DNA from: Nereocystis luetkeana
Taxonomy: Eukaryota > Sar > Phaeophyceae > Laminariales > Laminariaceae
NCBI GenBank assembly: GCA_031213475.1
Contig: JARUPZ010000004.1
Coordinates: forward strand, 6,790,000-6,853,999
Direction of reading: 5' to 3'
Length of the DNA stretch: 64,000 nucleotides
Below, piece by piece: positions 2,995 through 64,000 of this stretch (position 1 is its first letter; every line of letters begins with the position of its first letter). The position numbers and the translations under genes are program-made. The notes beneath the pieces were generated by a model. That model was given only the letters and a program-made list of their open reading frames with translations, made no database searches and was not told where the DNA came from.

Positions 2995-3172
2995 AGTAAA
3001 TACGATCAAATCTTGTTGGTACACAGGGAATTATGTAGGTTTTTGTATGTAACGTACAGTAGGTCCTTTTAGAACCGCAACCCCGTTTGAGGACAGGCGG
3101 CTCGAATTTCAAGTAATTTGTCCCCAAAACGGGGCTGACTGCGCTTCTAAAAGGGGGTCCCCCGTAAATACC
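2995..3172. mobile_element. MITE family B copy split by a family A insertion
   Basis: The left part keeps the B core (GTAGGTTTTTGTATG, then CAGTAGGTCC), and the right tip GTCCCCCGTAAATA follows at 3158. A family A copy (about 3071-3157) sits between them. The left B tip is decayed. Confidence 0.6.
3071..3157. mobile_element. MITE family A copy inside family B
   Basis: Arms AGAACCGCAACCCCGTTTGA and CCAAAACGGGGCTGACTGCG. Inserted in the right arm of the B copy at 2995-3172. Confidence 0.7.
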
Positions 3173-3179
3173 ATGTACC

Positions 3180-3895
3180 AGGTATGTGACTGCCTCATCG
3201 CGGGGTACCCACTCTGTAACCCCATTGTAATAGATTGATAGCCCTACTGCCTAAACCGAGGAGGCCAAACCATTCCGAATTAACCAATCAATGGTTATAT
3301 ACGCAGTGTTGGACAATTTATCCTCGTGTGTCAACCATCTAATACAAAAAAATGGCTTGTCAAGTCTACCATTAATATAATATGAATATTGATATCAGTG
3401 CCTCTATGATGCCTCTTTTGGAGAGTTCAACTTTAGAAGAAGACCCGCCGACTTCTCCATTTCCCGCAATTTGTTCCACGTACGTACATATATACGCATA
3501 CGCGCAGTCCTCCTGCGCAAACTTTTTTTTTTTCATGATTCGGATTGGCGCTCGTCTTTTTTCCCTGCTCTTGGAAATAACTTTCAGCCATTTTTTTTTA
3601 TAGCGTTCGTCTTCCCCGAAAAAAATCGTTTTCCTCGGTACGGAATTCCAAAGCCAAAATGCTCGCAGTACAGCAGTAAGTAGTTAATCCAATGCCTGGT
3701 ATATCTCTAAAACTAAAACAAAAAAGCAACAGCTAGCTGCGAGATCGAGGATTTATGAAGTCGAAACTCATTCTTGCAAGCTGTGTGATACCTTACTCTG
3801 CCCGTAAAGGTAAATTAAATGACCGTTTGGGGGTATTAACAGTAACAGCACAGCAGTAAGTACCCACGGGCTCCTTGTTGGTATCAAGGGCAAAT
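3180..3895. other. Intergenic stretch, nothing recognised
   Basis: AT-rich, with T runs and several TACAGCAGTA-like motifs (3671, 3850). No open frame of weight and no repeat family matched. Confidence 0.6.
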
Positions 3896-3901
3896 CTTAT
3901 A

Positions 3902-4354
3902 GGCCACTTCTTATGCAGTCGGATTTGCAGCCAGTTGGGAATTAATTGTGCTATCGGCACGTTCGCACGAGCTTTTCCCCCGAAAATGTGCGAAACTGCT
4001 GTTTCTCGCCTCAGAATGACTTGGACTTTTCTCCAAGAAGACCTATATCTAGTAGAAGATCTGTTTCCCGCTTTCTCCAGAGGTGCCCAGTTGCAGGGAA
4101 AACACGTATTTGACCCAGTTGGATCGGAAAAGTGCCGGGGGTGATTTCCTGCAACTAACTGGGCACCTGGAGAAGCGGGAAACAGCTCTAGACAGGTCTT
4201 GGAGAAAAGTCCAAGTCATTCTGAGGCGAGAAACAGCAGTTGTTTCGCACACTTTCGGGGCAAACGCTCGTGCGAACGTGCCGATAGCACCATTATTGCC
4301 GATAGCACCATTTATTTCCAACTGACTGCAAATCCGACTGCATGAGAAGTGGCC
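3902..4354. mobile_element. Foldback element family D, copy 1
   Basis: Inverted repeat with arms of roughly 200 bp (3902-4105 and 4150-4354) that begin GGCCACTTCTTATGCAGTCG. Arms diverge by small changes. The loop contains CCCAGTTGGATCGGAAAAG. No coding capacity. Flanks (ATA and TTG) show no clear target duplication. Confidence 0.85.
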
Positions 4355-4595
4355 TTGTAGGGTTGCACTTTATTTTTCCCCCGAGGTTTGTTCATCCTTC
4401 TTTCTGCCGCGACTAACTGTTTTAACACGTACTGCGTCGTGATCGGCGATTTATTTTTCAATCTTCTTGTCCCGCACCCTGCTGTATAATTACTAGTCAA
4501 ATCTCTAAAGTTGATAGATGATAGATGTAAGAAGTAGACACAGAAGGTAGATAGCCTTGGTGTATAGGTTTCCTTCGTATACGGATAATTTTTCC

Positions 4596-4760: not shown

Positions 4761-4772
4761 CAAAATTTAAAT

Positions 4773-4934: not shown

Positions 4935-5770
4935 GTATAAGAATGACGCCTCGGACATACAATATACTGCTGCTGTAGATATATACCAGGTATTAGATAC
5001 ATGGAGTATTGTTATACCGTAACTACAGAGACAATCGCCTCCATGGAAAACTTGGTAGGTAAGAGGTTTCGATGCTTTCAAGCCTGCAACAATTTGGAGA
5101 CAACTCTGAACACCGAACACACCCCGTGAAAAGCGCGATCGAGTTATATCTCATCTCACACACCAAACTCGCTCGCACAGATACATGAAGAGTTTTCAGT
5201 AAATTTCCGATCTCACAGCTTCGTTTTTTTTTTTTGTTCGTTTGTTCTTCTCTTCTTTTCTTCATGTATATACATAAATTGATACCTGGTACAAACTACG
5301 CCGGCGTATGGAAAGCGAAATATGTTGTTGCGTGAAAGACGGTCGGTTTATGTTTACATGTTCCGCAGACTGCTGTGGGAGTATGAATGTGCGTACGTGT
5401 AACATTATCATTCCATGTGCCAGCAGACAATATATGTTGCGCCTGTTCAAACCATACCATCCGCATACTACGTACAAAGGGGTACATAGCTACATCAGCA
5501 GTAAAACCTAATAACATAACCCTGTTATCGGAGTTTTTTCCCCCCTTATTTTCGACATTTTCTCGCGCAATTTTTCAATCTTCCGTATTTTCCTGATTTT
5601 TTTTTTCCAAACGTGTGAAATTTAACGAACTTGATGTTTTGGCTTCTGGAGAATCTCACGAATATACAGTGACAGAACGCCTCCGTATATTGATACAGAT
5701 CTCAATTATTTCCAAACTTTGGAAATTAATTATGGAAAAAAACGCTCTCCGATAAGAATGAGCCTTGTAA
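4935..5770. other. Intergenic stretch, nothing recognised
   Basis: AT-rich sequence with two TACCWGGTA motifs (4983 and 5283). No supported gene or repeat family. Confidence 0.6.
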
Positions 5771-5935: not shown

Positions 5936-6247
5936 CTGAATAAATTGAAATATTGCACCAAAAAATAAATGCAGACTGCCCCCCCCCCCCCCAAAAAAAA
6001 AACAAGTCCCCCTCACTACTCATGACTCTGCTGACTCCTGACCGACGTTTCACCAACAATGAAATTTACCAGGCACCTCTGTCTGGGTAGGGTATTTTGT
6101 TATGATTAATTACATTGGCCATCTCACAAATCAACGTGCAGCTCTTATTATGCCAATACTACCACCCACATATACATAAAAGGGTAAAAACCGCTTACTA
6201 CTGTCAACTTCGACTATAAATATTACCAGGTAATATTAATGTTAATA

Positions 6248-6463
6248 TCACGGGGGACCACAATAACCCTTTTTTTAGGACCGCAGCCCCGTTTTGGGGA
6301 CATTAACTACTTGGAATTTGACTGGTTTGTCCCCGAACGCGGGACTGCAACACGAAAAGGGTTAGATGGGACCTACGGTAAAACAAAAACCTACCTGGTA
6401 CACATTTCGCTATTTTTACGAACAACATTTGGTTCTGTTTACTATTAATATGATCCCCCGCGA
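6248..6463. mobile_element. MITE family B copy split by a family A insertion
   Basis: Tips TCACGGGGGACCACA and GATCCCCCGCGA are flanked by TA on both sides. The family A copy at 6267-6361 sits in the left arm where B normally has TTAA. The B core also carries the CCTGGTA micro-insertion at 6393-6400. Confidence 0.75.
6267..6361. mobile_element. MITE family A copy inside family B
   Basis: 95 bp, flanked by ATAA and TTAG, i.e. a decayed TTAA duplication at the TTAA of the B arm. Confidence 0.8.
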
Positions 6464-8718: not shown

Positions 8719-8744
8719 AGTTTAATCCCTACCTGGTACGCTAG

Positions 8745-12400: not shown

Positions 12401-14746
12401 AGGGGCAGGGGGGGGGGGGGGGGAAGTGTGAACGTTGGCGATTGCCGCTCGCGCGATCATCCTTGGGCATGTTCGACCTGCCGAAAGAGGGTCACGTCAG
12501 AGTACGTTCATACCACTCCGCAGGGTGGCCGGGGCCCCAACCCCCTCCTTGCAATAACGTGGGCGTATTACGTATCCTTCGGGAGACTCTTGACGCAGGA
12601 TGTAGCAAAATCCCGCAAGGTGTTGGCAACCTCTCGATTCGATTCGGTACGCCTTTATAGTAGTGCGCTACATTAATCAATGTCTTCACAACTTTGGTTT
12701 TTCGCCCGCATTATGCGGGGGCGGGGGGCGGGGTCCCGGCCACCTGCGTCCGAAACGAAACATGTTCACCGCCGGTATAGTGATATTTCGTACAAAGGGT
12801 GCTTAATATTTACGGAGAGGGTTGTATTTTTTTTTTTTCAAGAATTTGCTTCAAGCACGCATACCTACCGTTACGATATGTCTTACATCACCCTGGCGGG
12901 CAATATAGTCCCCGTTTTGATACTCACATCCGAGTTGAGCCGGGGGAGATGTCATCGGCCTACGTACATACCTGGTACGTAGATCGGTTAAATTGTATTG
13001 CAGGTATCGCAATTCTTTGTTGTGGTATATGCATACGTACAGCAGGAATGACTCGTTATTTTGTAGGCAGAGGGCGACCGAGGGGTTCGTCCTTGCCACG
13101 GCCGAGCCGCTGCCGCTGCTTCCTACCTACCGCTGCCGGTGGTGCTGCCGCTGCTACCGCTGCTGCCGCCAAAAATAAATATGCATCGGCCGACAGCACA
13201 CTCATGTCCGTCAAGGAACTCCCCACTCTAAAACATACAGGCAGGCACGTGAGTCTACAGAGGTGTTGGCGAGTCAAAACTAGGCATTCAACCACCATAT
13301 TTAGGCTGTTGCTCTTGCTGCTGCTGCTGCTGCTGGAAAGAAAGGTTGGAGCTACAGCAGTGTTGCACAGCACAGGGCGCAAGCCGCTATTAATAGGGGA
13401 TAGGTTTTTTAATTTCTCGACCGCGGCAAACCTCTCGCCATTTTTTTTTTTTGCTTTTTCCGGAGAACGTGTCATCTACAAGGGGGACCAAGCAGTCACA
13501 AAAAAAAACAAAAACACCAAACGATCACAATACATTTTTCAACATCGACCCCAAACATGGCAACAGCGACAAAACGGCGTATCTACAGTGACACGGGGCA
13601 GAGGACGAGAGCTCCTGGCAATCCTTTCTGTTTTTTGGTCTTTCTCCCTGGGTTTGATCGAAACAGCGGCGTGCATGCCCACAGCATATTTTCACGAAGT
13701 TTCTTTCTTATGCCTATGATTTAAATATTGTTTAAAAAAAATCAATCTAACATGCCACGTCACAGACACATCATAACTACAATAACTAACCCCCAGCATG
13801 CACCAGGTCAAAACGTTCGACAGCGAAAGTACAACAGCAACAAAATATCACAGCAGACCAAAAAAAGCGACAAAATAATCACACGGCATACATCCTCCGA
13901 CCAGGGCCACTTCGCAGGCACTCTACCCCATACAACCCACCCACCCACCCACCCGCCATCCACCCCTCCCACCTCCACCCCAACCCACCACCCCCCCACC
14001 CCCGCTCCAACGCACCCACGCACGCCCTCGCCCCCTCTACCCTACCTCGCCCCACCTCCCCCCCTTCCCCCCCCCACCCCATCCCAACCCACCCCTCCCC
14101 AACCCCCACTCTCCCACCCACCCCAACCTGCCCCAATCTCACTGCCCTCCCTGCCCCTACCCACCCTGTGCGCCAACTTGACGGCCACACACTTCCCCCG
14201 TCTCCGGCAGCGGGCCTTGATCACGGTGCCGAAGCTCCCGACGCCCAGCTGCCCCTCGACAGCCAACCGACCGGTACGTGGGTGCAAGTCCTCGGCCGTG
14301 AAAAGCAGCCCCTCCCCCTCGTCGTGCTCTCGGTGCTGCTGCCACCGCTGCTGCTGCTGCTGGTGCTGCTGCTGCTGGTGCTGCTGCTGCTGCTGGTGGT
14401 GGTGCTGCTGCTGTTGCGACTGCCGCAGTTGCGGCGGCTGCCGCGGCCGTTTGTTGTGGTTGATAATCGCCTGCCGCGCGAACCCGTTAAAGTACGTGCC
14501 CGCCTTCCAGGCTCGAACCTCCTCTTCGATACCCGGTAGTGGTGGTGGAGGCGACGCCGCCGCCGCTGGGTGGTGGCTCACGCCCGTCACGGAGGCGGCT
14601 GCTGCCGCTGCTGCCGCTCTCGCGGCTGCTGTTCTGGCTGCGGCTTTAGCTGCTGCTGCTCTCGCAGCTGCGGCGGCTATCGCCGTCGCTGCTGCTGCTG
14701 CTGTACCCGCCGCGGCTGTCGCGCCCATTGCTGCCTGTTGACCCAT
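9306..14746 (-). CDS. Protein kinase gene, four exons recovered (3' part not found)
   Basis: Minus-strand gene joined from exons 14746-14165, 12261-12215, 11586-11440 and 9451-9306, 922 nt or about 307 codons. All three introns start GT and end AG, and codon phases match at each junction (0, 2, 2). In order the product has an Ala-rich stretch, a Gln/His-rich stretch, the glycine loop GVGSFG (about residue 175), the VAVK catalytic lysine, a short helix-C exon with SEMAARLR, HENLVGCYG, the hinge ELCDAGDM, the catalytic loop HVDLKPDN and the DLG motif in GDLGLA. These are protein kinase subdomains I to VII in correct order. The usual Arg of HRD is Val and the usual Phe of DFG is Leu, so the group is uncertain and activity may be altered. 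The activation segment and the rest of the C-lobe were not found downstream (below 9306). They may lie beyond a very long intron or be lost. Family call sure; gene intactness unknown. Confidence 0.85.
9476..9655. repeat. (GTTTC)n tract in kinase intron 3
   Basis: Pentamer-based GTTTC/GTTTT repeats directly next to the kinase catalytic-loop exon acceptor. Confidence 0.9.
9684..9777. repeat. Purine-rich GGGA tract in kinase intron 3
   Basis: GGGAGGGAGGGAGG-type run grading into poly-G, with potential for G-quadruplex formation on the plus strand. Confidence 0.85.
9780..10330. other. Kinase intron 3, unassigned part
   Basis: No family matched. Includes a poly-G run (10085-10097) and CT repeats at 10330-10352. 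Confidence 0.5.
10355..10780 (+). mobile_element. Family F repeat, copy 1 (5'-truncated)
   Basis: From GGAGGTTGCCCACCGCTGGT to the poly-C run. The shared core includes GAAGCTGTCATCCATATGCA and GGTCTATGGTCATACGAC, then GGCCATGCG. Lies inside kinase intron 3. Confidence 0.75.
10909..11412 (+). mobile_element. Family F repeat, copy 2 (full length)
   Basis: About 500 bp from GGTTGGGTTGGCGTCGGTTG to GAGTACACCCCCC. Strong identity with 15131-15656. No open frame. The poly-C end takes the place of a poly-A tail. Confidence 0.8.
11440..11586 (-). CDS. Kinase exon for strands 4-5, hinge and helix D
   Basis: The acceptor is CTTGTAG and the donor GTGAGTT. It encodes LGYHENLVGCYGMDDRAPHK followed by PIFYELCDAGDM and a short stretch ending PLGDPDKIE. 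HENLV and ELCDAGDM are the conserved beta-4 and hinge signatures of kinases. The exon begins with one base and ends with two bases of split codons, which match exons 2 and 4. Confidence 0.85.
11650..11760. repeat. G-rich low-complexity tract in kinase intron 2
   Basis: GGGGAGGG-type sequence with long G runs. Confidence 0.85.
12215..12261 (-). CDS. Kinase exon for helix C (47 nt)
   Basis: A micro-exon too short for ORF finders. The acceptor reads GGTGACAG and the donor is GTGAGCC. It encodes GEGMMSQLSEMAARLR, with the last codon split 2+1 across the next intron. SE is the likely helix-C glutamate that pairs with the VAVK lysine. It fits in phase between its neighbours and supplies just the segment expected between strand 3 and HENLV. 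That match is the main reason for the call. Confidence 0.8.
12300..12425. repeat. G-rich low-complexity tract in kinase intron 1
   Basis: (GGGGGAGGGT)-like units ending in a long G run, just beyond the acceptor side of the 47-nt kinase exon. Confidence 0.85.
12430..13920. other. Kinase intron 1, unassigned part
   Basis: Mixed sequence with CTG/GCC triplet patches (13090-13165 and 13310-13335). Ala-, Gln- or Leu-rich frames come from these triplets. No supported exon besides 12215-12261. Confidence 0.5.
13925..14130. repeat. C-rich CCCACC tract in kinase intron 1
   Basis: About 200 bp of degenerate CCACCC units next to the donor of kinase exon 1. On the minus strand it reads as GGGTGG repeats. 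Confidence 0.85.
14165..14746 (-). CDS. Kinase exon with Ala/Gln-rich N-terminus and glycine loop
   Basis: Starts at the Met codon at 14746. The first 50 residues are mostly Ala, followed by SHHPAAAASPPPPLPGIEEE, then a Gln/His tract encoded by CAG and CAC repeats (14290-14410), then the N-lobe start with GQLGVGSFG and VAVKLAHR. It ends AGG before the donor GTGGGT, phase 0. The same frame stays open without a Met up to a stop near 14945, and a possible acceptor (GACAG) ends at 14921. So this may be an internal exon beginning at 14920, with the true start further upstream. Confidence 0.8.
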
Positions 14747-17364: not shown

Positions 17365-18020
17365 GTCTATGTGCTCAGCGCGCGGTTATCTACCAGGTAT
17401 CATTTTTAATTAGAAGAAATGTGGTTGGGGGGAAAATTGGCGGTTTGCACTATTAATAACAATGCTACTGCTGTGCGTCCTCGTATCGTGTGTGCAATTC
17501 TTGCAATAGGGTAATGATATCACAGGAGTATATAGCAAGATCATAACACCAGTCTAGAGTATCTTTATGCAATCATTTACAACAGCTGAAACGTTGAACG
17601 CGCCCGCACACGAGGCCCATAAAAATACTTTTTCGACTCGTACGGACGCGATCGGGCGAGGCATATATATATGTACGTAGCAAGGCCGCCAAGCGATCGT
17701 GAAAGAAGGAAGGTAATAGATGATACTCGTAGCTTATTACACTCGTATAGGCACTATAGGCTATATTATTAAATTGTTTTCCGTGCGTATGAGGTATATC
17801 TAGTGTATACCTGGTACACTGGTGTGGATGATGCATCATGCCGGTATGTACAGAGAAGGACGCGCTCCATTTCAGCTGACTTTATGCCACATTAATGGTA
17901 TGAGCCCGTCAGCCAAAAACAAAAAACCAAAAACAATACTCGTACGACCGTAGGAGTGATAAGATACACTCTGAGAATGAGCCAGCCTTATTTTCTTATT
18001 GTGACACCATCCTTGTTTGA
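17365..18020. other. Intergenic stretch, nothing recognised
   Basis: AT-rich, with two TACCWGGTA motifs (17390 and 17808). No repeat family matched. Confidence 0.5.
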
Positions 18021-18818: not shown

Positions 18819-18925
18819 TTAGGACGAAATATTGCTAGTAAAAATGGTTAAATATATACCAGGTACCAGGTACCTGGTAGGTTTTTATGTATACCATTGG
18901 TCCTATTAACTATGGTCCCCCGTAA
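18819..18925. mobile_element. MITE family B copy with micro-insertion
   Basis: Right tip CTATGGTCCCCCGTAA is intact; left tip lost. At 18859-18879 it carries 21 extra bases made of three TACCWGGTA motifs, where the consensus has only TA. Confidence 0.7.
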
Positions 18926-18949
18926 TAACTCATCCCGTGCTCAACCGTG

Positions 18950-19012
18950 AGCGCTGACTACTATGTAGGCTTTAGTGTGGCCCTCGCCGCTCAGCACGTT
19001 TTCTCAAGCCTC
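18950..19012 (+). repeat. Family I repeat, copy 3
   Basis: GACTACTATGTAGGCTTTAG then GCTCAGCACGTTTTCTCAAG. A further GCGTCCCCCCTACC unit lies at 19166. Confidence 0.5.
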
Positions 19013-19017
19013 TATTA

Positions 19018-19107
19018 TTACGGGGGTCCATAGTAAATAGGACCTACGGTACACACAAAAACCTATATATTTACCTGTTCTTACTAACAAAATTTGGTCC
19101 TATTTAC
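19018..19107. mobile_element. MITE family B copy, right end lost
   Basis: TTACGGGGGTCCATAGTAAA through TTTGGTCCTATTTAC. A decayed family A copy (19107-19155) begins where the right arm should be. Confidence 0.65.
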
Positions 19108-19497
19108 TGCAGTCCCGTTTCGGTGAGAAACTACTTAGAATTTGAGTGCAGTCCTGTTTTCAATAGCGTCCCCCCTACCAAAGTGAGCCAAAAAAAGTTC
19201 TGATGATGAGTACTCGTACCCACTCGTAGTCTCTTTCTTGTCAGTGGGCATATAGTGCTGTAGTACTCGTTAAGCAGCAGCGTCTACAGGGTAGACCACT
19301 ATTAATAGACCTACACACTACTTTGTGCTAGAACCGAATACCAGGTATCATACGAGTAGAGCAGTAGAGTACCCGGTGCTGGTGGTTCTTAGAACTACCA
19401 GGTACCCCCCGGGGCTCGGGGACGATATGACCAGCAGGTAAAAAGGCGGTATCGTTCGTATACGGAGCTGGTTCGTGGGGCGTTTTGTCGCCCTTTT

Positions 19498-19581
19498 TTT
19501 TGAACCGCAGTCCCGTTTTGGGGACAAACTACTTCAAAATTGACTAGTTTGCCCCCAGAACGGGACTGCGGTTCTGAAAGG
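19498..19581. mobile_element. MITE family A copy
   Basis: Arms GAACCGCAGTCCCGTTTTGG and CCAGAACGGGACTGCGGTTC are near perfect. Flanking TTAA lost. Confidence 0.75.
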
Positions 19582-19804
19582 GGGAACATCTTTTTTACTA
19601 CTGGTATGTGTGTGTGTGCTCGTACGGGTGTAAGCTCGCAATGATTCTGATAATGTACGTCAAAACAGACCGTCTCCTCTGCTGTTCAGGCAGATAAAGA
19701 GCAAAGCGCGTGCCTGGGGTAGGCTACGAAAGGTACAGCTCAGCTATATACATGGTACCAGGTAGGTACACAGCAAGCAGTAGGGTGTGGCTTACTGCTT
19801 AGAG

Positions 19805-21430: not shown

Positions 21431-21599
21431 AATAATAATAATAAAATAATAATGGATGGATGGATGGATCCCCATCAAAATGCATTTTTTCCGAAGGGGC
21501 GTATATATACCTGACCAAAAAGAAGCAGAGAGCAGGAAAATCATTCTTGTACTATTGATAGAGGTCTGCTATTAATATCAATCAATACGTACCTCGTAT

Positions 21600-21700
21600 A
21601 CCCTGGTATTTATTAGAATATGAAGAGTTCTTCACTTTCTGTTAGTCGTTTATTAGAACAACACTACACATTGTCGGATGGCAAGCACAATAATAATACT
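21600..21700 (+). mobile_element. Family C-related repeat
   Basis: Shares CGTTTATTAGAACAACACTA and the tail CACATTGTCGGATGGCAAG plus AATAATAAT with 4672-4760. Confidence 0.65.
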
Positions 21701-24019: not shown

Positions 24020-24250
24020 TTGTACCAGGTATGAGGTTGAAAGCCCGGTAATTACCTGGGTTCTGGCACTGGGAACGTATTTGTAGTACTTGGAAGGCTA
24101 TCTTAGGTGGAAAACCAGGGGTTTTCCAAGAGAGGCACGAGCGTGGTCCCAGTCTCCGTCGTGCGCGAAAGGAATAAAGTGGCTCTTCTATCTCTAAGCG
24201 AACATCAACGTGAGCACCAACGAGTGCCGGCTTAATAGGCAGACCTGTCC
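24020..24250 (-). repeat. Family H repeat (diverged copy)
   Basis: The minus strand shares CCAAGTACTACAAATACG and AACCCAGGTAATTACCGGG with 26985-27270 and 27960-28250. Confidence 0.6.
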
Positions 24251-24292
24251 AGGGATACAAAGTGTCCCGCTCTCCGTGATCTCAAGAAGTGG

Positions 24293-24373
24293 CGTCGTCG
24301 GCAGGACTCGAACCTGCGCGTGAAATCACAATGGGTTTCCAATCCATTCCCTTAACCACTCGGGCATGACGTC
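24293..24373 (-). tRNA. tRNA-Ser(GGA)-like gene, possibly a pseudogene
   Basis: The minus strand shows a D arm (CCCGAGTGGTTAAGGG), an anticodon loop TTGGAAA with anticodon GGA, a long variable arm (TGTGATTTCACG), and a perfect T arm (GCAGG-TTCGAGT-CCTGC). This is a type II serine tRNA. With the usual spacing the acceptor stem GACGTCA/CGACGAC has two mismatches, and the anticodon stem has one A-C pair. A perfect 11-bp pair exists instead between 24291-24301 and 24378-24388, but its 5' strand lies about 13 nt from the D arm rather than 2. Either a decayed gene or an oddly remodelled one. Confidence 0.55.
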
Positions 24374-24390
24374 CGGCCGACGACGCCAAA

Positions 24391-24475
24391 TGTGAAGGTG
24401 TTACCTACTGAGCTATAGGGGTAAAAGATCGACAATATTTTACCCCTATATAGCTCAGTAGGTAACACCTTCACA
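24391..24475. repeat. Palindrome made of two SINE family J heads
   Basis: GTGAAGGTGTTACCTACTGA (24392 on) and its exact reverse complement (ending 24474) face each other around GATCGACAATAT. Head-to-head heads with arms of about 36 bp. Confidence 0.85.
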
Positions 24476-24745
24476 TTTGACGTCGTCCAGGTCACGGGTT
24501 CGAACCTCACTTCGAACGTTTCTTTTACAGAAACGCTTGCGCGTGCACACCTCAAAAACACATCTCCCTGGTTCCCCAGGTAATGAAACGAAGCGGGTAG
24601 GTCAGCGTACGGACGTATGTATACGGTTCCGGCGCCCCAAAGATCCCGCCGTTCAGAGGGGGGGAGAGTGTTATAAGGATTACCTTGGGCTGGGTAATCG
24701 ATCGATCTTTTACCTCTATAGCTCAGTAGGTAACACCTTCACACT
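24439..24745 (+). mobile_element. SINE family J, copy 2
   Basis: Head with A box TAGCTCAGTAGGT and B box GGGTTCGAACCTC (24451-24507), body 24545-24707 ending GGGTAATCGATCGATC, then the first 38 nt of another head. So head, body and the next head lie in tandem. Confidence 0.75.
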
Positions 24746-24849
24746 GTTGTGCTGATGTCTGTACGTATCATACGTACGTGTAGTCGGTACGAGCATACAT
24801 AAAAGGTCGTACCATTAATATTAATATTAAATATTAATATGCTGAGTAA

Positions 24850-25830
24850 CGCACTGACCACCTCATGTCGTACGCCAAGGCCCTCAAAAAGGCACAATGC
24901 GAGAGCGCTGAGACGAGACCATCCGCGAACGACGCCTCCTCTTTGCGGGGGGCGTACAGCGGACGACCCATGAGCGGCTGACCCACCGGGTGATGTTTGG
25001 GACGATGGCTAGTGGGGAGAACCCGGGACGAGGCCGACCGGAAAAGAACTGGGCCCAATGCCTATTACGGGGGACCATAGTTAATAGGACCTATGGTATA
25101 CATAAAAACCTATATATTTATCGATTTTTACTAACAATATTTGGTCCTATTAACTATGTTCCCCCGTAATAGCAGACGACCTCAGGGTTTTTCAAGCCAC
25201 CGAGGGGTCCACGGAAAGCTCCCCCCTGCTGTTCGGAGTAGAGACGTTGTTATGGCCGAGGGCGGCTAAGAAGAGCGGGAAGTGGTACCGGGGGGTCGTC
25301 GAAGCGGCGGACTGCTTCATGGCGAGGTGGCACAGGGACGAAGCACAGAAGAGCCGGCTGCGCCACGCAGCAGAGGACGCCAAGAGCGGCGACAAGGGGA
25401 GGGGGGGAGGGGGGGGAGGGGGGAGGGGCAGCTGTTCTGATACAGCTGTCGACGAATGCGGAAACGAATTGATAGATCGGGCGTCTAGCAGCCTTTCTGA
25501 AGTCCTTACGTCGTTTGCATTCTGTTTTTTCTTTCTTTCTTTTTTCTCTTCTTTTCATTTCAGATTTTTGGTTTGTTGGTTTTATTGTCTTTTGCTCTTT
25601 TTTTTCCGGTCTTGCTTGAGTTGTTGTGTTCTCGTACCGGGTACGCTGACACTTCACTTGCTTGACACTTGAATTTGCGATTTAGTTTTATTTTTGGTCT
25701 TCCTCTGTCTCGCAGTCTGTGACCACAGAATCAGTACGTATCTCTCTAGGATAGGGAATCAGGACGGACACTGGGTGTGCTGATGAAGCTGCGTAGAAAT
25801 TATTATTTAATGTCAAGACAACAACAACAA
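24850..25830 (+). mobile_element. LINE 3' end, copy 2, interrupted by MITE B
   Basis: Inverted relative to copy 1 and nearly identical. The 5' break lies about 60 bp further in than in copy 1, so the two are probably separate insertions. The open frame 25247-25672 repeats VVEAADCFMARWHRDEAQKS. Ends in (ACA)n. The family B insertion 25065-25169 splits ...CAATGCC and GCAGACGAC. Confidence 0.75.
25065..25169. mobile_element. MITE family B copy with proven TA duplication
   Basis: 105 bp. The uninterrupted LINE copy reads CAATGCCTAGCAGACGACC. Here the same site is CAATGCCTA, the element, then TAGCAGACGACC. The duplicated target is therefore TA (25063-25064 and 25170-25171). Confidence 0.95.
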
Positions 25831-25845
25831 CCATCATACCTGGTA

Positions 25846-26044
25846 GTTAATAGGACCTATGGTAGTCACATAATTTTGCGGGGGGCCATCGTAGTTAATA
25901 GGACCTACGGTAGTAATAAAAACCATAATATTACGGGGGGCCATCATAGTTAATAGGACCTATGGTAGTCATAAAAACCTACCGGTATATATTTAACAAT
26001 TTTTACTAACAATATTTGGTCCTATTGACTATGGACCCCTGTAA
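25846..26044. mobile_element. Cluster of three family B copies, last complete
   Basis: Partial left ends at 25846-25875 and 25873-25928, then a complete copy at 25931-26044 with TA flanks and a CCGGTA micro-insertion at 25980. Confidence 0.75.
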
Positions 26045-26097
26045 TATGTACGTAAGGCCAAGAAATAAAATACACATACCAGGTAATTAATAAATAA

Positions 26098-26238
26098 ACG
26101 GAAGGGAGGTAGACTTGGTGCATGGGTTTCCTTTTGTTTCCGAGGTTTTCTTCTTTCGGGAAAGTTATGAGTGATCCATGTTGAAGATCATGCTGCACAC
26201 TGTCGGATGTGGCAAGAGAAATAATAATAATAATCCAA
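26098..26238 (+). mobile_element. Family C copy
   Basis: From GGAAGGGAGGTAGACTTGGT to GTCGGATGTGGCAAGAG plus (AAT)n. Confidence 0.75.
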
Positions 26239-26369
26239 CAAGAAAGAAGATGTGGCTCATTCATGCACCCTCCAGAGGGGATTATATATTACCCTCAAGA
26301 GGGTGTTTGGTGGTAGCCGATTGGCCACGTGGGCACCTTTTGTGGAGGGCGCTAAGAAATTTGGAATAA

Positions 26370-26456
26370 TAGGACCGCAGCCCCGTTTTGGGGACAAACC
26401 ACATGGAACTAGAGTGGTTTGCCCCCAAATCGGGACTGACTGCGGTACTAAAGGGG
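26370..26456. mobile_element. MITE family A copy
   Basis: GGACCGCAGCCCCGTTTTGG and CCAAATCGGGACTGACTGCG arms; flanks not TTAA. Confidence 0.7.
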
Positions 26457-26789
26457 ATAAGGACCGTGTACCTCGGTGCGTACACATGTTGGAGGTATTT
26501 TATATACAATGTCAGACATACATACATGCGCACACACTATTAATATATGCTTGATACCTCGCTTGGTGGTTCCACACAAAAATCTCAAGCAGCACCACAT
26601 ACATGTTATAAGTTTAAAGGTCGGGACACTTCGTATCCCTTTTGTTGTAGGTTTGCCTATACTTGTACTGTGCAGGAGGTACTTGGTTGGGACACGTGTG
26701 TCTGTTGTTTGCTTTTTAGAGACGGAAGAAGAGGTAAGCAGCTTGGGATTTAAGAATTAGAACGTAATGAGAAGGAAAGAGCAAGGGCA

Positions 26790-26960
26790 GCAGATAAATG
26801 GAGTAGACAGGCCGAAAGTTGGCACAGAAGGGAGGTAGACTTGGTGCATGGGTTTCCTTTTGTTTCCGAGGTTTTCTTCTTTCGGGAAAGTTATGAGGGA
26901 TCAATGTTGAAGATCATGCTGCACATTGTCGGATGTGGCAAGAGAAATAACAATAAAGAG
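26790..26960 (+). mobile_element. Family C copy with longer open frame
   Basis: The plus frame reads ERARAADKWSRQAESWHRRE then VDLVHGFPFVSEVFFFRES without a stop before the tail, so family C may derive from the end of a transposon protein. Tail GTCGGATGTGGCAAGAG plus AATAAC. Confidence 0.7.
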
Positions 26961-26984
26961 GTACGAGTAAGTAAGCTTTTTATT

Positions 26985-27955: not shown

Positions 27956-27959
27956 TTAG

Positions 27960-29854: not shown

Positions 29855-30655
29855 CAGTCAGTAATCGGGATCCATAGTAAATGAAAAACTACTATATTAC
29901 AGTATTTTTGCTATTATTGATAAGCGTATTTGGTCCCACTACAGTAGTCTTGCTTATGCTTCCCGGTAATACCTCATAGCTTTTGTTTTTTTCAAGAAAA
30001 CGTGCGCTGAAGCCTGAGCACTCGCTGTCTGTACGTAGACAAACATTGAAAGAATTCTCCCCCACTCTCTCGCTCGGGGAGAATGGGAATCTACAGCATA
30101 GCATTAATTGGCCTACAGCTGGACTTCCGGTTCCAATTCTTGCGAGAGGGCCGATACTGCTCCGCTACACAAAACACATCCATTCATTCTTATTTAATTT
30201 AATCCGTACGCATAACATCTGAATACGGTATGCTACATCAGTAGTATGCGCTCTTCCAAATGTAATATTGATAGTTGTCGTGATATATACCTGGTACAGC
30301 ACTAATAATCTATCAGGTAGTACCCATCCATATGCAGTAAGAGGGCAACATGATTCGTGCCGCGCTAATAGATTATGGATGGATCCGGGGGAGGGGGGGG
30401 GGGGGGGGGGGGGGGGCTGCAGGGTTCGAAGGGGCCTGGACGGGGGGAGGGAGGGGGGGGGGTGAGTTGGGGCAGGTCCGGCTGTGGTGGTTACCCGAGT
30501 ATAGGGTGGGTGGGGGCGACTGGCCTTCTTTTTCTGTGGTATACATCTGCGGGGCTCTGGGCTGTCGTAAACGCGTATCTGTTCAAACGGTTCGTCTTTT
30601 TGTTCCGTTTCTGCTGGTACTAGATCGGCCGCGCGATGTACTTTGTGTAATGTGC
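29855..30655. other. Intergenic stretch
   Basis: Contains an apparent B-derived core (29885-29970), a long poly-G run (30388-30415) and G-rich sequence to 30470. No gene seen. Confidence 0.45.
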
Positions 30656-33123: not shown

Positions 33124-34398
33124 CCTATTAATAGGACATATCAGATCCCTTTTTCGGGAGCTAGATCTTTTGGGGCAGATATATCCCTGATCTATAGGGA
33201 TCTGCGGGATCTAGATCATGTTTGCTGTAGTATAGGATCTGTGCGATCTAGATCCTATGTACACGTTTGCCTGGGTGGGACCTGTAAGATCTAGATCTTA
33301 TTTACATGTTTCTGTGTGTGGGATCTATATGATCTAGATCTTACACACACGTTTGCCCGGACATGATCTGTGTGATCTGCCTGATCTGCACATGTTTGAC
33401 TGGTGAGATATATATGACCTGCAATATCTAGGCCATATATATATGCCTGGAGGGATCTGCATGATCTAGATCTTACATACCTGGTATATGTTTTCGGTGG
33501 GTGGGATCTGCATGATCCAGATAATACATATATGTTTCGCCAGGTGGGATCTGCAAGGTGGGATCAGCAGATCTGCGTGATCTGCACATGTTTCATAAAG
33601 TGGGATCTGTATGATCTAGATCTTGCATACATGTTTCGCCAGGTGGGATCTGCATGACCTGGGTGATCTGCACATACACATGTTTGCTAGGTGGGGTCTG
33701 TATGATCCGCATGATATGCCACATTGTACTCGCAAATGACGATGTACACGTTTATGTTTGCTCGCGGGTGATTATATGCGTTGGCTCGTGTATATCGGAA
33801 CCGTTGTAAACGAGATCTGACCTACATTGACGACATCGCAGCCCATGGTGGCGGCTAGCAGCTCAAGCTCCCTCCCCATCAACCGCACAGCCACAGCTGC
33901 ACATGCACGCCGTCGCTTACTAACCACGTACGGCATATATATGACAACTGTCGGGGGCGGGCTCTGATAGTGACACTGGGGCAGCAGGTGATGTCCGCAG
34001 CGGGCCGTTCCCCGGCGGATCCCGGAGGCGAACCGATCGAGTTGGATCTTGCACACACATTTGGGCGTGTTCGATCTGTATATCTAGATCGTACACACAC
34101 GTTTGCCTGGGTGGGATCTGTATAATCTAGATCTTACATACATGTTTCGCCAGGTGGGATCTGCATGATCTGCGTGATCTGCACATATCCGCCAGGTGGG
34201 GGTCTGTATATGATCTGCGTGATCTGCACATGTTTCACCAGATGGGGTCTGTATTATCTAGATCTTGCATATATGTTTGCCCGGGTATGATCTGTATGAT
34301 GTTTCGCCGGGTGGGATCTGTATGATCTAGATCTTGTGCACAACTTTCACGTGTCTGTGAAAAAGGATCTAGATGATCTAGATCGTGATCTGTCCTAT
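33124..34398. repeat. GATC-rich minisatellite block
   Basis: Irregular units of about 45 bp built on GGGATCTGTATGATCTAGAT and CATGTTTCGCCAGGTG, in two arrays (33124-33735 and 34036-34398). Both outer borders carry the palindrome CCTATTAATAGGAC. Internal AGATCTAGATC is itself palindromic. Confidence 0.85.
33736..34035. other. Non-repeat insert within the GATC minisatellite
   Basis: GC-rich 300 bp. The minus strand has an open frame (to 33772) containing VVIYMPYVVSKRRRACAAVA and MGRELELLAATMGCDVVNV. Not recognised; might be an exon or a captured fragment. Confidence 0.4.
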
Positions 34399-34534: not shown

Positions 34535-34651
34535 ATATTGTTAGTAAAATTAGTTAAATATATACCACCTGGTACGAGGTACCTGGTAGGTTTTTGCTTG
34601 TACCATACGACGTGTATCAGGTAGGTCCTATTTACTATGGTCCCCCGTATA
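34535..34651. mobile_element. MITE family B copy, left tip lost, micro-insertion
   Basis: Right tip TATGGTCCCCCGTAT. Extra CCWGGTA-type sequence at 34565-34588 where the consensus has TA. Confidence 0.7.
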
Positions 34652-35235: not shown

Positions 35236-35689
35236 TAGTAACAGAGTGAACCTCTATTATCATCGTAGAACGCCATCAACATACCATACGTGGATCGTAT
35301 GGTTGCGCTGTACACACGTCAGATGGCAAATTGAATACCAGTATATATATACGGTACGTACCTCCAATTATTCTAGAACCGCTTTTTATATTTACGGGCA
35401 GTCTGGTACTACCGGTACTGTGTAATATTAATAGTATACCAGGTATGTGGTCTATTATATTTGCATGCCCCGGGGCCGCGCCCAGCACGGTAACACCACA
35501 ACAAGAATATAGCGGATTAAATGATCTTTTAATAATACTTCCATTTAGTTGTGACTGCCCTCCCCTTCAATTCGTAGACGATCCACATGGATTGGGGGGG
35601 GGCTACGAGCATATTTCGTAGACGATTTGCCAGAGTGTGTGCGCGTTCTTCACCTGAAGAAACCGTTTTTACTACCCGGCGACATCCAG

Positions 35690-36597: not shown

Positions 36598-36988
36598 TAC
36601 AAGTAGTAGCGACAGCCAGTGTCCCATGGGGTACGAATTCTCAGTCTACAATTTGTCGTCGAACAGGTACAACAGGGTACTTTCACGTATGCATGCAAAT
36701 TGCATGTATCCAAGCGCGTCGACCACGTGGTGGGGGGGGCGCTGCAGGGCTAAAAAAAAAAAGGTTAAAACAATACCTGGTAACTCACAACACTCAAATC
36801 AAGTGCAGACACATACCAGGTACTACTACTGCAGTTATTATTATTCCATCTACCCTCTGGCAAAATGTGCAGCTTACTCCTATGATGCCATCCGCATAAT
36901 ATTATCAAAAGGGGTACTTGCATGTACAGCAGTTTACTACTGCTGTAGAATCCAATGACTTGACACACGGAAGAAGAATGGGCTATTA

Positions 36989-37109
36989 TTACGAGGGACC
37001 ATAGTACTGTAGCAAATAGGATCTACGTTGAACACAAAAACCTACCCTGGTATATATTTACATTTTTTAGTAACAATATTTGGTCCTGTTTACTATGTAT
37101 GGCCCCGCG
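36989..37109. mobile_element. MITE family B copy with two small insertions
   Basis: Relative to the consensus it has CTGTAGC after CATAGTA (37008) and CCCTGGTA in the core (37043-37050). Tips TTACGAGGGACC and GGCCCCGCGTAG. Confidence 0.7.
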
Positions 37110-37697: not shown

Positions 37698-38082
37698 GTG
37701 GGCCTTCAACGACCATACCTGGTACCAGGTTCGCACCCTACCTGGTATATTTTATAGTCGTAGACAGGCGGCGTACGAGTACGTGTTTGCCGGCTACTTA
37801 TTAAAATACTACTCGTGCCGGATGCGTGAGGATACACATTAAATGATTTACTATCAATACTAACCAACTGCTGTGTGGATAATTTTGCGGGATTGCTATT
37901 ATTTGCGCTATGATTGCCGTTGTAACCAGCCGGTCCTTTATGTCTCCTGTCTTTCTACTGGTACTACTGCTTGCTAACTCCGGGCGTCAGGGTATGTATC
38001 ATATGCATGCGTAAGGGCCTATGTTGTAAGTGTGCACTACTAACTGACGTCTTTACGAGGGAATAATGGGTTTTGATATTTC

Positions 38083-40797: not shown

Positions 40798-41375
40798 GCC
40801 CCGGCATTGTAGGGATGCGAGGGTCTATGGTCATACTACTACGGTCATGCATGACAATGAGCACACACCCCTCCCCCCCCCCCCCCCTCCACCCTTCATC
40901 GTCCTCCTTGTTACGGCCAGCACTGCCTTTATAGGCATTGTATCGGCCATTGTATAGGCCAGGCCATTATAACCCCCCCACGGGTCGTATTGTCCTCGTA
41001 GTCACTGCCCCCCCCCCCCCACCCCTAGACGCGAGGGTCTATGGTCATACGACTATGTACGGCCATGCATGATATCGGGTACGGTCACCCCTCGTTGCCT
41101 TCCTTGCCACGACAACTCCTTCCAATCTGCGTCTACCGCTACTGATTTCCGCCTTCACCGTCCTCTTCTCTCTCCTTTCCCTTTCTACCGTTCTTTGGTC
41201 CCTCCTTCTCGCCACCTTCACCTTCACCAGCTTGCGCTTTTGCAGTCTCGCTGTCACAATCATTCCACCCCCTCCCCCCCCGCATTGTAGGGATGCGATA
41301 ATCTACGGTCATACCACCACGGCCATACATGAGATCGGGCACCTCTCTCCTACCAGGTATCGAGTACACCCCCCC
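40798..41375 (+). mobile_element. Three short family F 3' ends
   Basis: At 40798-40868, 41029-41085 and 41281-41375: GGGATGCGAGGGTCTATGG, then TCATACNACTACGG and CATGCATGA, each followed or preceded by poly-C. Confidence 0.65.
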
Positions 41376-54000: not shown

Positions 54001-55760
54001 TGGCAACGCCCGCTCAACATCTTGAGATGAAGAGTGGTTGCCACATAGAAATAATACTAGAAACAGTAACAATTCTGGGCACTGGAAAGAGTGTGTCCGG
54101 GTATAACTCAATTAGAGCGGAAGGTCACCATTTCACACGTTATTATGGCCGTCGGAACAAATGATTCGATATCTAGCCCTGGTAACCGGATGCGACCGGA
54201 GTTGAATATGACTCGCGTACATCTGCCCGCGCAGGCATGTGATCTTTACTTCGTGAGCCTGCACAACGACATGGAGAGTCTTTTCAAGTACAGCGACCCC
54301 CAACGCACCAACCAAGCAACCCTCTGGTTGGTGTACGGGTTAGAGTTCCGGGTCAAGGTGATGGCCGCGTATAGCAAACCTCAAAACATTATCACCGTCG
54401 GAAAAAACAACGCAATACTAAGGTAAATTCATGCAAATCAAACGAGGTACGCACAGCAGTGATATACGGTATACTTTGGCGTATACATGTATACATGTAA
54501 ATGCACGGTGTGAAGAATAGGTCAAGCTTTCGAATGTTGTGATACGGGCCCCGGATGTCATGTTAAAAAAACTCTAAAGGCACTGTGCATCGCTCACTCG
54601 CTGCTATCGTAAATGGAATTACAAACTTGGAAAAGTGGAATGTTTCGAACTGACAAAGCCGCAAGCTGCGAGCGATTGGGTAATACGCTGCCTTTGATCG
54701 ACCGGCGGACTGTGAGTTTGTGCATGCGTGTTGAACGCTGGCAGAAAGGCTGCGCGCAATCGAAGTGAAATACAACTTTGAAAATCTTACCCTGTATAGG
54801 TACGAGTATGGAGCTGCTTCGAATCATATCAGTATCCGTGTGCGATGGCCTCTGAAGCATCCCTCAGACAACCGTAGCCCCTACCAGGGTATATACTACT
54901 TTAGAGAGACGCCAGAGGTTTGCGCCTAGCGCGGGCTACTCGCGTATCCACCTAGAAGCCCGCACGCGCCTTGATGGCGACGTATATCACAGTAGCATGC
55001 TTCCCCATGAATGCTTGTGCGGTAGGGTCTGCAAGTCTGCATTGGGCGGGCTCTATTTCGCCTAACTATGTATAAACGGTATACATTTATGACAGATACG
55101 ACAACTGTGAGTTCGATCGATTGAGGGGCTGATGCTCAACTTCCAAGCTGCGTCCTACGTCGGGCGCGCTTATTATTTCGGAAACTCGGCCACGGACGGT
55201 TGTTGCACTCGATGGCTTATCGTGTTTTTATATACGCCGCTGTCGAACGTGTCCTCTTGTAGCATACGTGGTTTGTAACATGATCGTTGAAGAGAGCGGT
55301 AGATGCGTACGGTACACCAACAAACAGACAACACACATACAAGAGTTAGCCGCACCAAATTGTCACCGGCTGCACCCACACATACACCCCAGCAAGTTGC
55401 CCGCACCTGATTATCACCGGCTGCACCTCTCACATGTATACAGGAGGGAAGGTTGTAGGACACACCCGGGTCGTATCGTACTACGTCATCGGCGTCCTCC
55501 GAAGAAGCTCACCCATCCACACCGAGCATCGCCTCTGATAAGAAGGCTTGGCCACACAATATAAAACCCTAATCTCCGCAGACCTGTATAAGATCGGCGA
55601 GTGCCTCAAACATGGGGTCGTTTGTCGAGAATTCACTATAAATAGATTAAATATGTTTTGGGTCGTTTATTTGATTATGTGAAATGCTTGGACTATTTCA
55701 TACTTGTACTGCATGAACGGGCATAATGAGATGTATATACGGGTGCCTGATATTTAGCAT
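54000..55760. other. Stretch without recognised genes
   Basis: A plus frame of 111 codons (54091-54426) with VHLPAQACDLYFVSLHNDME is not recognised. Short similarity between 53757-53840 and 54811-54890 around AGTATCCGTG. Confidence 0.35.
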
Positions 55761-60000: not shown

Positions 60001-62009
60001 TCACACCCTCCTGCAACGCAGACAGGCGAGCCTGAAGACAAAACGCGACGCAGTTGAGAAATAGCGGGAACCTTCTCTACGGCCCTGAACCAGTGGCGAA
60101 CTGTATGAAGGCAGATATGCGGAGCAAGACAAGCCGAACCGACGGTGGCCACAAAGGAGGCTAAGGGAGGTACCTACGCTAGCGGCCTGGTCGACCCTCA
60201 CCGAGCCTAACCACGACATGGACGGCGCTATCCTTGTCCACGTGGAAAGCCACTACTCGACCGCAACGCTCCGAGTGAAATCACACCCAGAATCACTCGT
60301 TAACACCTGCGCAGATGCACAAACGCTACCTTTGTCCCCGAAGGAGACGGGTTCCGGAGACAGGGCGACGCGCTTGCGCCCGACGCTACCGTCGCCAAAC
60401 GTAGCATCCAACGCACGCCCCCACTGTTCCCTCACGGCGTCGCGCTTGGCAACCCGCTCCGGAGCATCTACGCGTGCAGTGGGCGCCGCGACCGCCCCAC
60501 CGGCGGTTGGAGCCGCCGCCGCCCCTTCAGATGTAGGGCCCAACCAAGAGGAAAGGCTCGTGTCCTCATTTGGAGCTGGAGCCACCGCCCCCAAAAGCTC
60601 CTCAGCCACCCGCGGCCCGAGGAGCGTTGCCCACGCGCAGAGCCAGAGCACGGGACACAGCCCCCGCCGTCGCCGATATGCCCCCACCCCCAACGCTCAG
60701 AGCGACGGGAGACGACGAGTCCGCCGGGGGGGAGACATGCACTCAATTGCAATCGCGCCACTTGCACCTCCCAGTGGCTTCATACATGTTGCAGAACTGG
60801 ATGCTCTTTTTCGTGGTGTGCCAGGCGTCAGGCAAGGAAGGCCCGGAAGCGGCCTTACGTTTGAAAGACCCCTCCCCGCGGACGCCGGTGCCTCGTGAGG
60901 TTTCCTCGACGATCTTCAGGAGTTCCCCACCACCCCGGCAGAAGGTGGACGCACAGTCGGAGACCGGAATCGGGGGCTGTTCGAGCATCGTGTCCGGGGG
61001 AGGAGGAACCACAGGCAGTTGGTTTCTCAGGGTGAAGCGCCTAAGCTCGTTTACCCACGGCCGAAGATCGTGATTGACCATATCGCACATAACTCTCTTA
61101 CCCTTGGCGCTCGACAAGCTGGTGTAGTTGCAAAGAGTGTGAGTCCGCACGTCGGCGGACGCCGCCGTAAAAGTCGCGCTGAGTGGAGCCAGCCGCTCTG
61201 GGCACGGGGGATCGGCCTCAGCTGTCTGCGACAACCCAACGGACAGCACCCCGACGAGCGCCGACCGCACGAGCTCGAGGCGATCGGCGATCGTATCCAC
61301 CCCTCGGGGGACCAATCCGTCCGGGGCCCAAATTGGGCAATGGCAAAGTCGCTAACGGAACGGAGCTGGGCGACAACACGTGCTGTGACGTTGACCGACT
61401 GCCACACGAAGGCTTGCATATCGGCCGGAGAATCGCCGAGCAGGTGGGGAATGCGACCCCGAAGAATCCATTACCGTGTGAGTCCGACCTCTTCCGGAGA
61501 GAAGCTGCATCGACGAGCTGCGACTTCTGCTTTTTCCGAAGCCCGCGTGTCGGCTGTCTCGCGAAGCGTCACTTTGAGCGGCTTGGATCGCAACGAGCTG
61601 TTGCGGCACGATCTCCTGGTGGGCGCGCTGTGCCACGCAGGTCGACAGCGAGACCTGGAAGCTCGAAGTGGAAGTGGCCAACTCCTTGGTTCTTGATGAG
61701 GCTGCTTGCATGTAGCCCTGGATAAGGCAGAATTGGCTTTTCACCTGCCAGCCACTGGATCATGTCGACCAAGTGGACGAAGTCCGATTCAGCGCCAACA
61801 GGGGGAGCATCGGCCGCAGTGCTCCGGGGCTCAGACTCAGCGTCGGGTGCAGTAGTGGCAGCGATGACCTCGTGAGGCTTCGGGGCATCACCTATCGCAC
61901 GAACAATATCAAACAGCAGCAGTATGTATCCCTGAAATGCCAACGCCAGCGCCAAAACGAGCTGCGAAGAAGGACAGCAGCTGCCATCCCACCCCTTCAA
62001 AGCCAGCTA

Positions 62010-62180
62010 AACCAGTTCCCACACCATAGACCCGCCTTGACAACCCCGCGTCGCTGCGTCTTCTCGATGGCGAGTCAACTGCTACAGCGGAACTGGCCAG
62101 CAATCTGTGTTGATCTCATTGGTCAGCTCCTCCCGTACATACAAAACACGTATTCTCTCATACCACAATATTACTCAGCT
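62010..62180 (-). repeat. Split direct repeat A1
   Basis: Shares GCGAGTCARCTGCTACAGC and TGTTGATCTSATTGGTCA with A2. Marks the outer 5' end of the retroelement. Confidence 0.8.
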
Positions 62181-62184
62181 TTGT

Positions 62185-64000
62185 GCTACGACGTCTGTGG
62201 TACAGCGTCAGAATACATATTTGACAGCAGCAACAGCAGTATACTGCCATGTATCGGTTATTGCAGATAATTTATCGTTACCTTTGTAAAGACTGAATTA
62301 AGATGATTTACCTGGTATAGGATAGTTGTGGAACTCTAACACGGGATCGAGCAGTCTTGTACTCGAGTGCACGCACCCGACATCGACGACGATCTGTTTG
62401 CTTCGTTGTCTATGGTACTTATTTACTTTAGACTGCTGATGTTTCTGGTTTGTGGATTTTGACTTGACTTTAATCTGCGATTTCATGGTTCAGGGGTTGT
62501 GGAGTCATCAGAAGGACATCGTGACATTTTGCTATAAATCATGCGATGAATGCTGTGTCGTCTACCAAAAAGGGGGGGATAATAGCTGTACTCGACTACA
62601 GGACGGAGAACTTCTATCGCAGAGAACGAAGTCGAGGTGGAGTTAGATCCCGCGTGGATGCGGACTATGCCCGCCAGGCTACTGACCGGAGGTATGTCTT
62701 TGATAGAGTGATTTTGTCCACTGGTGTCTGTGTATCGTTTTCCTTCAAGACGCAGATATATGGGGCGTGTGTCTATCGGAGAGTTTGTGATTGACACGAA
62801 CGGTCGGCAGAGCAGCATGCCGATCTTCTTATCAAACAGTTGCACGCTGGGGCGTTCGCTTCGCTTTGGCCGGGACTTTGTGAAGAACGTGCGGGGATTT
62901 CTCCTACCGATTTGTTTTTGCGGGGTATTTGGGGTGTTTGGATTTGTAAGATAACACGTATGATAGGGGGTTCCGGTACGGGTGGAACTTTTTGGGAAAC
63001 ACTTTGAAGGATTTACCTGCGACTTCAGGTGTTATTAGGGGTAGGGAGAATGTGTTGGAAGGTACCCATGCGTCCAGCAAGGTTTTTAGGTCAGTGAGAT
63101 ACTATGATGGTCTTCATGAACCGTGCCATACAATTTGGCTATTGGTTAGTCACGCACAACATACAGGGTAACCAAGTACTACATACAGTAGTATCTATAT
63201 ATAGTATTTCTGAATTCAGATGAAGTAGTTCGTTGTCTTTTTGTATACTTCCGAGGGGAATGCCTAGTAGGGGGGCTGCTATATAATATTTCGATTGCGT
63301 TTGATTTCAGTGACGTGCTGTTGTTCTGCTGTCGCAGAGTACACAACAGGGAGGCCGATGTTATCGGGCGAAAACACATCGATGTGAAGACGGAGCCACT
63401 GATTGGTGTTGAAGATTTACCAACATACCAGGTACTCACGTTTCTTGGATGTTTCCCTTCCCGTATTTGCTTGCTTCGCTGTATTTTGGAAGGTCTATAC
63501 TGAAGCTGAGATGGACGGATTGGGTACAGAGATTGCTGTTTAACGTCCGCAATTATTTAGAATGGATCTTGGGATTGGCGTTTTATCTTAGCAATTGTTC
63601 ATTCTGAAGTTGGGGCTTTTCTTTCTGACGGATCTTGATGGAATTTGTCATTACGGTTTTACCTTGGCGATGGTGTCCGATGGAATTTGGGATGTGCTGC
63701 TTCACCTGGAATTTAGTGACACGTTGCTTGGGACTTGCCGTATGACGCACCGAGCAGGGAGGCTATTTGTAGTACTCGGTGGTTTCGTAAACGTCTACGG
63801 GATAATGCTTTATAGTGTGTGGCGAGGCCTTGTGAACAGAGATTATGCTTAGATGCTCCCTCTTCGGCGCCCGTCAATATTGTGTTGCGATACGACCCGG
63901 GTGTGTGATACGACGATACCGCCTGTATGCATGCGAAATGCACAGCCGGTGACAATCAGACGAATGCAACCTCCGGTGGCTTATGTGTGAGTGCAGCCGG
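62185..64000. other. Right end of the window, nothing recognised
   Basis: Plus frames at 62546-62954 and 63595-63852 are open but match no family I know. Two TACCWGGTA motifs (62310 and 63426). Confidence 0.4.

Follow-up and report, generated by a model that had tools for sequence, protein, structure and literature searches.

We examined a 64,000-base stretch of the Nereocystis luetkeana genome (contig JARUPZ010000004.1, positions 6,790,000 to 6,853,999; the whole stretch is called the window below) that is scattered with the 9-mer TACCWGGTA. This word is most probably (we put the probability at about 0.85) the excision scar of a TA-specific, Tc1/mariner-like transposable element, recently active and tipped by CCAG(G). 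The excision-scar reading was adopted because sister repeat copies with a plain TA, symmetric TA-centred flanks, tandem 7-bp units and the parallel of a second dispersed scar, TATTAATA, all fit it; the same evidence supports an earlier note on this DNA, made from the letters alone, which had proposed excision scars of a TA-specific transposon. The word behaves like a Tc1/mariner-type excision scar, and superfamily membership is inferred from this behaviour, neither an element nor a transposase having come to light.

In the window, TACCWGGTA occurs in 29 exact copies where 0.46 are expected, a number reached by none of 100 shuffles and in close agreement with the note's estimate of about 30 copies against 0.5 by chance. 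Among TANNNNNTA words it ranks first in the window (runner-up 14) and again in a 264-kb sample consisting of the window and 20 evenly chosen 10-kb stretches, with 2,500 N in one of them (109 copies, runner-up 23; an order-3 Markov model expects 2.6). Single-base neighbours of the scar number 0–12 each in the sample, beside the 109 exact copies. The genome-wide count recommended in the note (465,085,209 bases, 1,987 contigs) came to 182,395, about one per 2,550 bases, compared to 1,744 for a backwards-read control pattern (about 100-fold fewer), and is far from expectation; the total is an upper guide to the number of excisions, carrier repeats having multiplied some scars. A near-palindromic and abundant word could also be kept by selection for protein binding or regulation, or be a piece of a larger repeat, the latter being an outcome that the note had itself raised. 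TACCWGGTA does not belong to a single larger repeat: of the 9-mers with 14 or more occurrences in the sample, simple repeats excluded, it stands in the greatest number of different flanking contexts (68), and with a stricter collapse of contexts, applied to four words, it retains 44, followed by CTATTAATA with 38. The diversity of contexts, the indel spectrum, and the clean 7-bp presence or absence between near-identical copies all oppose a binding site or repeat fragment, which we consider extremely improbable.

The exact scars of the window and the variants considered below are as follows, all listed without strand (.).

3176..3184 (.): scar TACCAGGTA, exact match
4984..4992 (.): scar TACCAGGTA, exact match
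5283..5291 (.): scar TACCTGGTA, exact match
6224..6232 (.): scar TACCAGGTA, exact match
6392..6400 (.): scar TACCTGGTA in family-B core, exact match; empty family-B sisters exist
8730..8738 (.): scar TACCTGGTA, exact match
12969..12977 (.): scar TACCTGGTA, exact match
17391..17399 (.): scar TACCAGGTA, exact match
17808..17816 (.): scar TACCTGGTA, exact match
18857..18879 (.): three overlapping scar units, period 7, at family-B core TA, exact match; empty sisters exist
19339..19347 (.): scar TACCAGGTA, exact match
19396..19404 (.): scar TACCAGGTA, exact match
19756..19764 (.): scar TACCAGGTA, exact match
21599..21608 (.): 6-nt variant TACCCTGGTA
24023..24031 (.): scar TACCAGGTA, exact match
25837..25845 (.): scar TACCTGGTA, exact match
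25980..25987 (.): variant TACCGGTA in family-B core
26077..26085 (.): scar TACCAGGTA, exact match
30288..30296 (.): scar TACCTGGTA, exact match
33478..33486 (.): scar TACCTGGTA amid GATC-rich repeats, exact match
34563..34574 (.): variant TACCACCTGGTA in family-B core, beside the exact site at 34580
34580..34588 (.): scar TACCTGGTA in family-B core, exact match
35437..35445 (.): scar TACCAGGTA, exact match
36774..36782 (.): scar TACCTGGTA, exact match
36814..36822 (.): scar TACCAGGTA, exact match
37043..37052 (.): 6-nt variant TACCCTGGTA in family-B core
37716..37724 (.): scar TACCTGGTA, exact match
37739..37747 (.): scar TACCTGGTA, exact match
41351..41359 (.): scar TACCAGGTA, exact match; plain TA in 10 sister repeats (12 sisters by another method)
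54882..54891 (.): 6-nt variant TACCAGGGTA
62309..62317 (.): scar TACCTGGTA, exact match
63426..63434 (.): scar TACCAGGTA, exact match

The region 41360-62308, about 21 kb, contains zero exact scars, compared to 27 in the first 41.4 kb.

Alignment of repeat copies revealed the scar as an inserted unit. An all-against-all alignment of 336 kb gave 1,556 distinct insertions, 39 of them 7 bp long, and rotations of TACCWGG were the commonest 7-bp kind (8 of the 39; the next kind reached 2); six of the eight are independent, as the insertions at loci L041, L043:1140 and L045 look like a single event. A directed test of 134 sites in 346 kb found 15 with a sister short by exactly 7 bp. At 14 of the 134, at least one sister had TA exactly at the scar position (12 independent sites, counting L041/L043:1140/L045 once), so that the scars, rather than any intact insertions, show insertion at TA with TA duplication there; the fifteenth, L067, did not align cleanly. 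Other sisters at those sites read TG, CA, TC, GA or AA, as mutation of TA would give. Besides the window and the 20 stretches, both sets include loci fetched by motif or by chosen repeat, and the 346-kb set adds the core variants described below. Tandem 7-bp scar units were present at 5 of 103 places in the 264-kb sample. The best case is L013:1490 with L030, 99.6% identical over 281 bp, where one copy has TACCTGGTA and the other TA; L043:369 and L037 (97.7% over 400 bp) likewise show scar versus plain TA. On the relative scale of repeat divergence, activity was recent: each single-base neighbour of the scar is scarce beside the exact copies, and a sister as close as 99.6% lacks one scar; the note's "once very active" is better put as "active until recently".

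Family B is a TA-flanked inverted-repeat MITE (miniature inverted-repeat transposable element), about 107 bp long and tipped by TTACGG/CCGTAA; the following copy serves as an example.

25063..25171 (.): family-B MITE including the TA on each side, core empty; probable parent of TATTAATA

When family-B copies were compared, as the note had advised, the core TA was empty in some (AAATATATAGG) and filled with one or more units in others. The note had listed five family-B insertions: the one it placed at 6393 is an exact scar at 6392; the one at 18859 is a scar, but present as three overlapping units; and at 25980, 34565 and 37043 there are indeed inserts in the core, but not the exact 9-mer (TACCGGTA, TACCACCTGGTA at 34563, and TACCCTGGTA, respectively). 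Its GATC-repeat insertion at 33478 is an exact scar; that near 18045, in its "Family I", turned out to be a different and longer insert that lacks the 9-mer.

Family B is likely the parent of TATTAATA, because its tips match that scar and a CTAG preference is common to both; TA-TTAA-TA fits what the family-B tips would leave, and CTATT precedes 30 of 60 family-B copies. The word CTATTAATA is dispersed as well (71 in 264 kb versus 3.2 expected). Among 77 TATTAATA places a usable sister was available at 15, with an ungapped empty match at 13; the clearest empty sisters are those of L017:4568 (19), L033:1837 (18, best 98.8%) and L042:2950 (7, best 100%), the remaining cases being weaker and two of them sitting inside family B itself. 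Family B resembles the TACCWGGTA system in TA insertion, in what look like scars made of tip bases and in empty sister sites, and differs from it in that the parent is visible and repeated, the scar is TTAA, and the target preference is GTA outward from TA. Within the window TATTAATA occurs at 6443, 17451, 26538, 33126 and 16 more places. Further TA-bounded words stand in many contexts in the 264 kb, namely TACAGCAGTA (16 contexts, 1.2 expected), TACGAGTA/TACTCGTA (42 versus 11.3 expected) and TACAGTA (64 versus 36.7 expected), and possibly represent additional scar classes.

Target preference was assessed on the flanks of 99 distinct-context sites, both sides merged, against a background of 14,941 TAs in that sample. 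At +1, A was depleted (0.07 versus a background of 0.20); +3 was biased to T; at +6, T reached 0.48 versus 0.25 (chi2 63.8), and at +7, A or T reached 0.82 versus 0.54 (chi2 66.3). The bias was weak from +8 (chi2 9.5 at +8 and at most 6.4 further out), and a side-by-side table of 109 sites showed it to be present on both flanks. The preference is thus symmetric around TA, as looked for in a Tc1/mariner element, and the target preference of a transposase would fit it naturally.

The scar could arise as follows. A cut-and-paste transposon would insert at a TA dinucleotide and duplicate the TA; its tips would read CCAG(G) inward, and the excision cut would leave short 3' overhangs derived from the tips. 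In-register end joining would place the central A opposite A, and repair to A or T would give CCAGG or CCTGG between the TAs; joining slipped by one, with one strand copied in repair, would give CCAGGG/CCCTGG, and joining slipped by two would give CCAGGGG/CCCCTGG. The scar would create a new GTAC target, at which a repeat strike would produce the 7-bp tandem units.

The variants bear on the tip. The 264-kb sample contains TACCAGGGTA nine times versus TACCCAGGTA once, together with TACCATGGTA (1), TACCGGTA (14) and TACCAGTA (26). Genome-wide, one TA in the family-B core carries 1,093 exact scars; a further 204 sites there are variants, 101 with a non-A base before CCWGG and 103 with a non-C base before WGG. 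We read 120 of the 204, a non-random draw: from the 101, the first 40 listed, then six preceded by G or T, two CCCAGG and 12 others; from the 103, 12 ATGG, 2 GTGG, 3 TTGG, 2 TAGG and 1 AAGG, then 36 ATGG and 4 GTGG. They read CCCTGG (39), CCATGG (21), CCCCTGG (4), CCCAGG (2), CCAGTGG (2), CCTTGG (2) and eight single forms; the 42 that could not be parsed as TA-CC...GG include substituted forms, one-sided forms and core deletions (L158, L162, L166). A loose pattern placed family-B sequence on the left in 116 of the 120, and inspection by eye did so for L070 and L155; L077 carries a double scar that has been rearranged, and the left side of L145 is about 950 bases of unrelated DNA, which makes it a truncated copy or not classifiable. 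The tip would read CCAG(G) rather than CCTGG, because a CCTGG tip would yield CCCAGG, which is rare, and of the two tips covered by the note's CCWGG the variants favour the one with A. The overhang would be 3 to 5 nt long: a 4-nt overhang CCAG would also account for CCWGG, CCCTGG and CCAGTGG, and a 3-nt overhang CCA for CCATGG. The scars and main variants fit overhangs derived from tips, but the tips themselves did not come into view. Two of the core copies show other features; that of L062 holds a different palindromic insert, TACTTCGAAGTA (twice in the 264-kb sample), beside TACCCTGGTA, and TTAGGG/CCCTAA-like repeats border the core deletion in L162.

In Sleeping Beauty footprints the central base is resolved to A or T, and the Mos1 tip is CCAGGTGT. 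According to PMC7827188, the 3' overhangs produced by Sleeping Beauty and mariner transposases are 3 nt long, Sleeping Beauty footprints being identical to the overhangs; 3-nt overhangs are likewise given for Mos1 (PMC4505599) and footprints of 0-4 bp for Passer (PMC9976928). TACCWGGTA shares with these footprints the TA target and its duplication, the preference for bendable target DNA and, putatively, the tip bases between two TAs (PMC7827188). Unlike the 3-nt products of Sleeping Beauty and Mos1 and the 0-4 bp of Passer, the main scar here is 5 nt, CCWGG. In the brown alga Ectocarpus a large Mariner-Tc1 load is described, most copies being non-autonomous, which is a likeness in the load; the word "footprint" is absent from the text of PMC12477816. 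Among the matches listed, literature searches showed no comparable genome-wide scar; the 9-mers themselves turn up in 217 papers, and the 20 of these that were listed are unrelated by title.

Several results weigh against the excision-scar reading. Emptiness in a sister was demonstrable at just 14 of 134 sites, and the 134 include loci selected by motif, variant or repeat. The slip model does not predict TACCACGGTA (6 in the sample), nor the C- or G-centred TACCCGGTA (12 versus 1.8 expected); these fall outside the model or may reflect later mutation. CCATGG (21 of 120) and the one-sided TGG-like forms suit a 3-nt better than a 5-nt overhang. The parent did not appear: judged by eye, none of 380 TACC[AT]G starts or 2,108 TACC starts in the sample was recognised as part of an intact element, and searches of the sample for TA-flanked inverted repeats gave no such element. 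The 120 family-B-core variants read included no clear intact insertion, L145 being ambiguous. The PF13358 (DDE_3) profile gave 0 matches (30 candidates scored, control working), as did the PF01359 (Transposase_1) profile, whose control was silent. In an explanation without any element, CCWGGTA would be a micro-insertion, templated or polymerase-added, made during repair of TA-centred breaks; no element was seen in the searches, and TACCACGGTA and CCATGG resemble repair variation. We regard this as very improbable in view of the fixed 5-base core, the strand-specific variants (CCAGGG/CCCTGG, hardly CCCAGG), the symmetric target preference and the TATTAATA parallel, all of which tips and a transposase would produce.

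The search for the parent of the putative excision scar covered further ground. The note had suggested looking for elements that start with TACCAGG or TACCTGG and have inverted ends; none that was intact was recognised in the sample. Paralogue-boundary tests at the 380 and 2,108 starts flagged 39 and 27, which by eye were scars, ordinary repeats or family B, and a split-alignment search for larger insertions gave no TACC...GGTA case among the matches listed. Two CCAGG/CCTGG-tipped pairs (window 18857-19764; L014 851-1481) were rejected as elements, both beginning with scars. TACCWGGCATTGGATT, considered as a shared tip (2 sample matches, 233 genome-wide), was the interior of an ordinary repeat in the 20 loci fetched, which have sequence in common to either side of it or, at any rate, in its surroundings. 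The inverted TACCTGG 4 kb apart at window 24053-28095 are inverted repeat copies whose similarity extends past TA, as it also does in L012 and L015 (TACC inverted pairs of 282 bp and 190 bp, respectively). A tRNA-Ser (gga) is present at window 24290-24373 among inverted repeats, some of them around tRNA-like copies. Nine window open reading frames (ORFs) and ten sample ORFs gave no transposase against Pfam; introns could conceal a transposase from profile searches. In an ORF at L010:1-2730 (-), which is perhaps a retroelement carrying NADAR, a reverse transcriptase domain (1.9e-22) lies downstream of a NADAR domain (5.2e-48).

The random sample is less than 0.1% of the genome and may have missed resident copies numbering in the hundreds or up to a few thousand. 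The parent could, alternatively, normally reside outside the chromosomes, as an integrating virus or an episome, or its insertions could be cleared by a domesticated transposase, each visit ending in excision and a scar. Scars do far exceed recognised insertions (182,395 in the genome, and 1,093 at one target with no clear insertion in 120 of 204 variants), and recent scars are present. Positive evidence for an off-chromosome parent is lacking, a scan of viral contigs for tandem scars giving 9 stretches of 2-3 motifs each and no scar-rich DNA, and the data are equally well accounted for by a modest set of resident copies that transpose conservatively; we think such a parent unlikely. It is possible, though on the doubtful side, that a transposon or extrachromosomal TA-integrating agent was excised some hundred thousand times while leaving next to no resident copies, its history being recorded only in scars.

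Excision footprints are usually studied singly, in assays. Here about 182,000 scars of one kind, and a second kind with its likely parent present, occur in one genome. They provide a natural record, in bulk, of how ends were joined, which targets were preferred and how events were timed relative to one another, and they are far more numerous than any element recognised. Several such scar classes may exist in this genome, and scars may be usable as an excision counter. A parent, once found, may prove to be an unusually active TA-specific transposon; should there truly be none, annotating repeats from their resident copies would badly underestimate past transposition.

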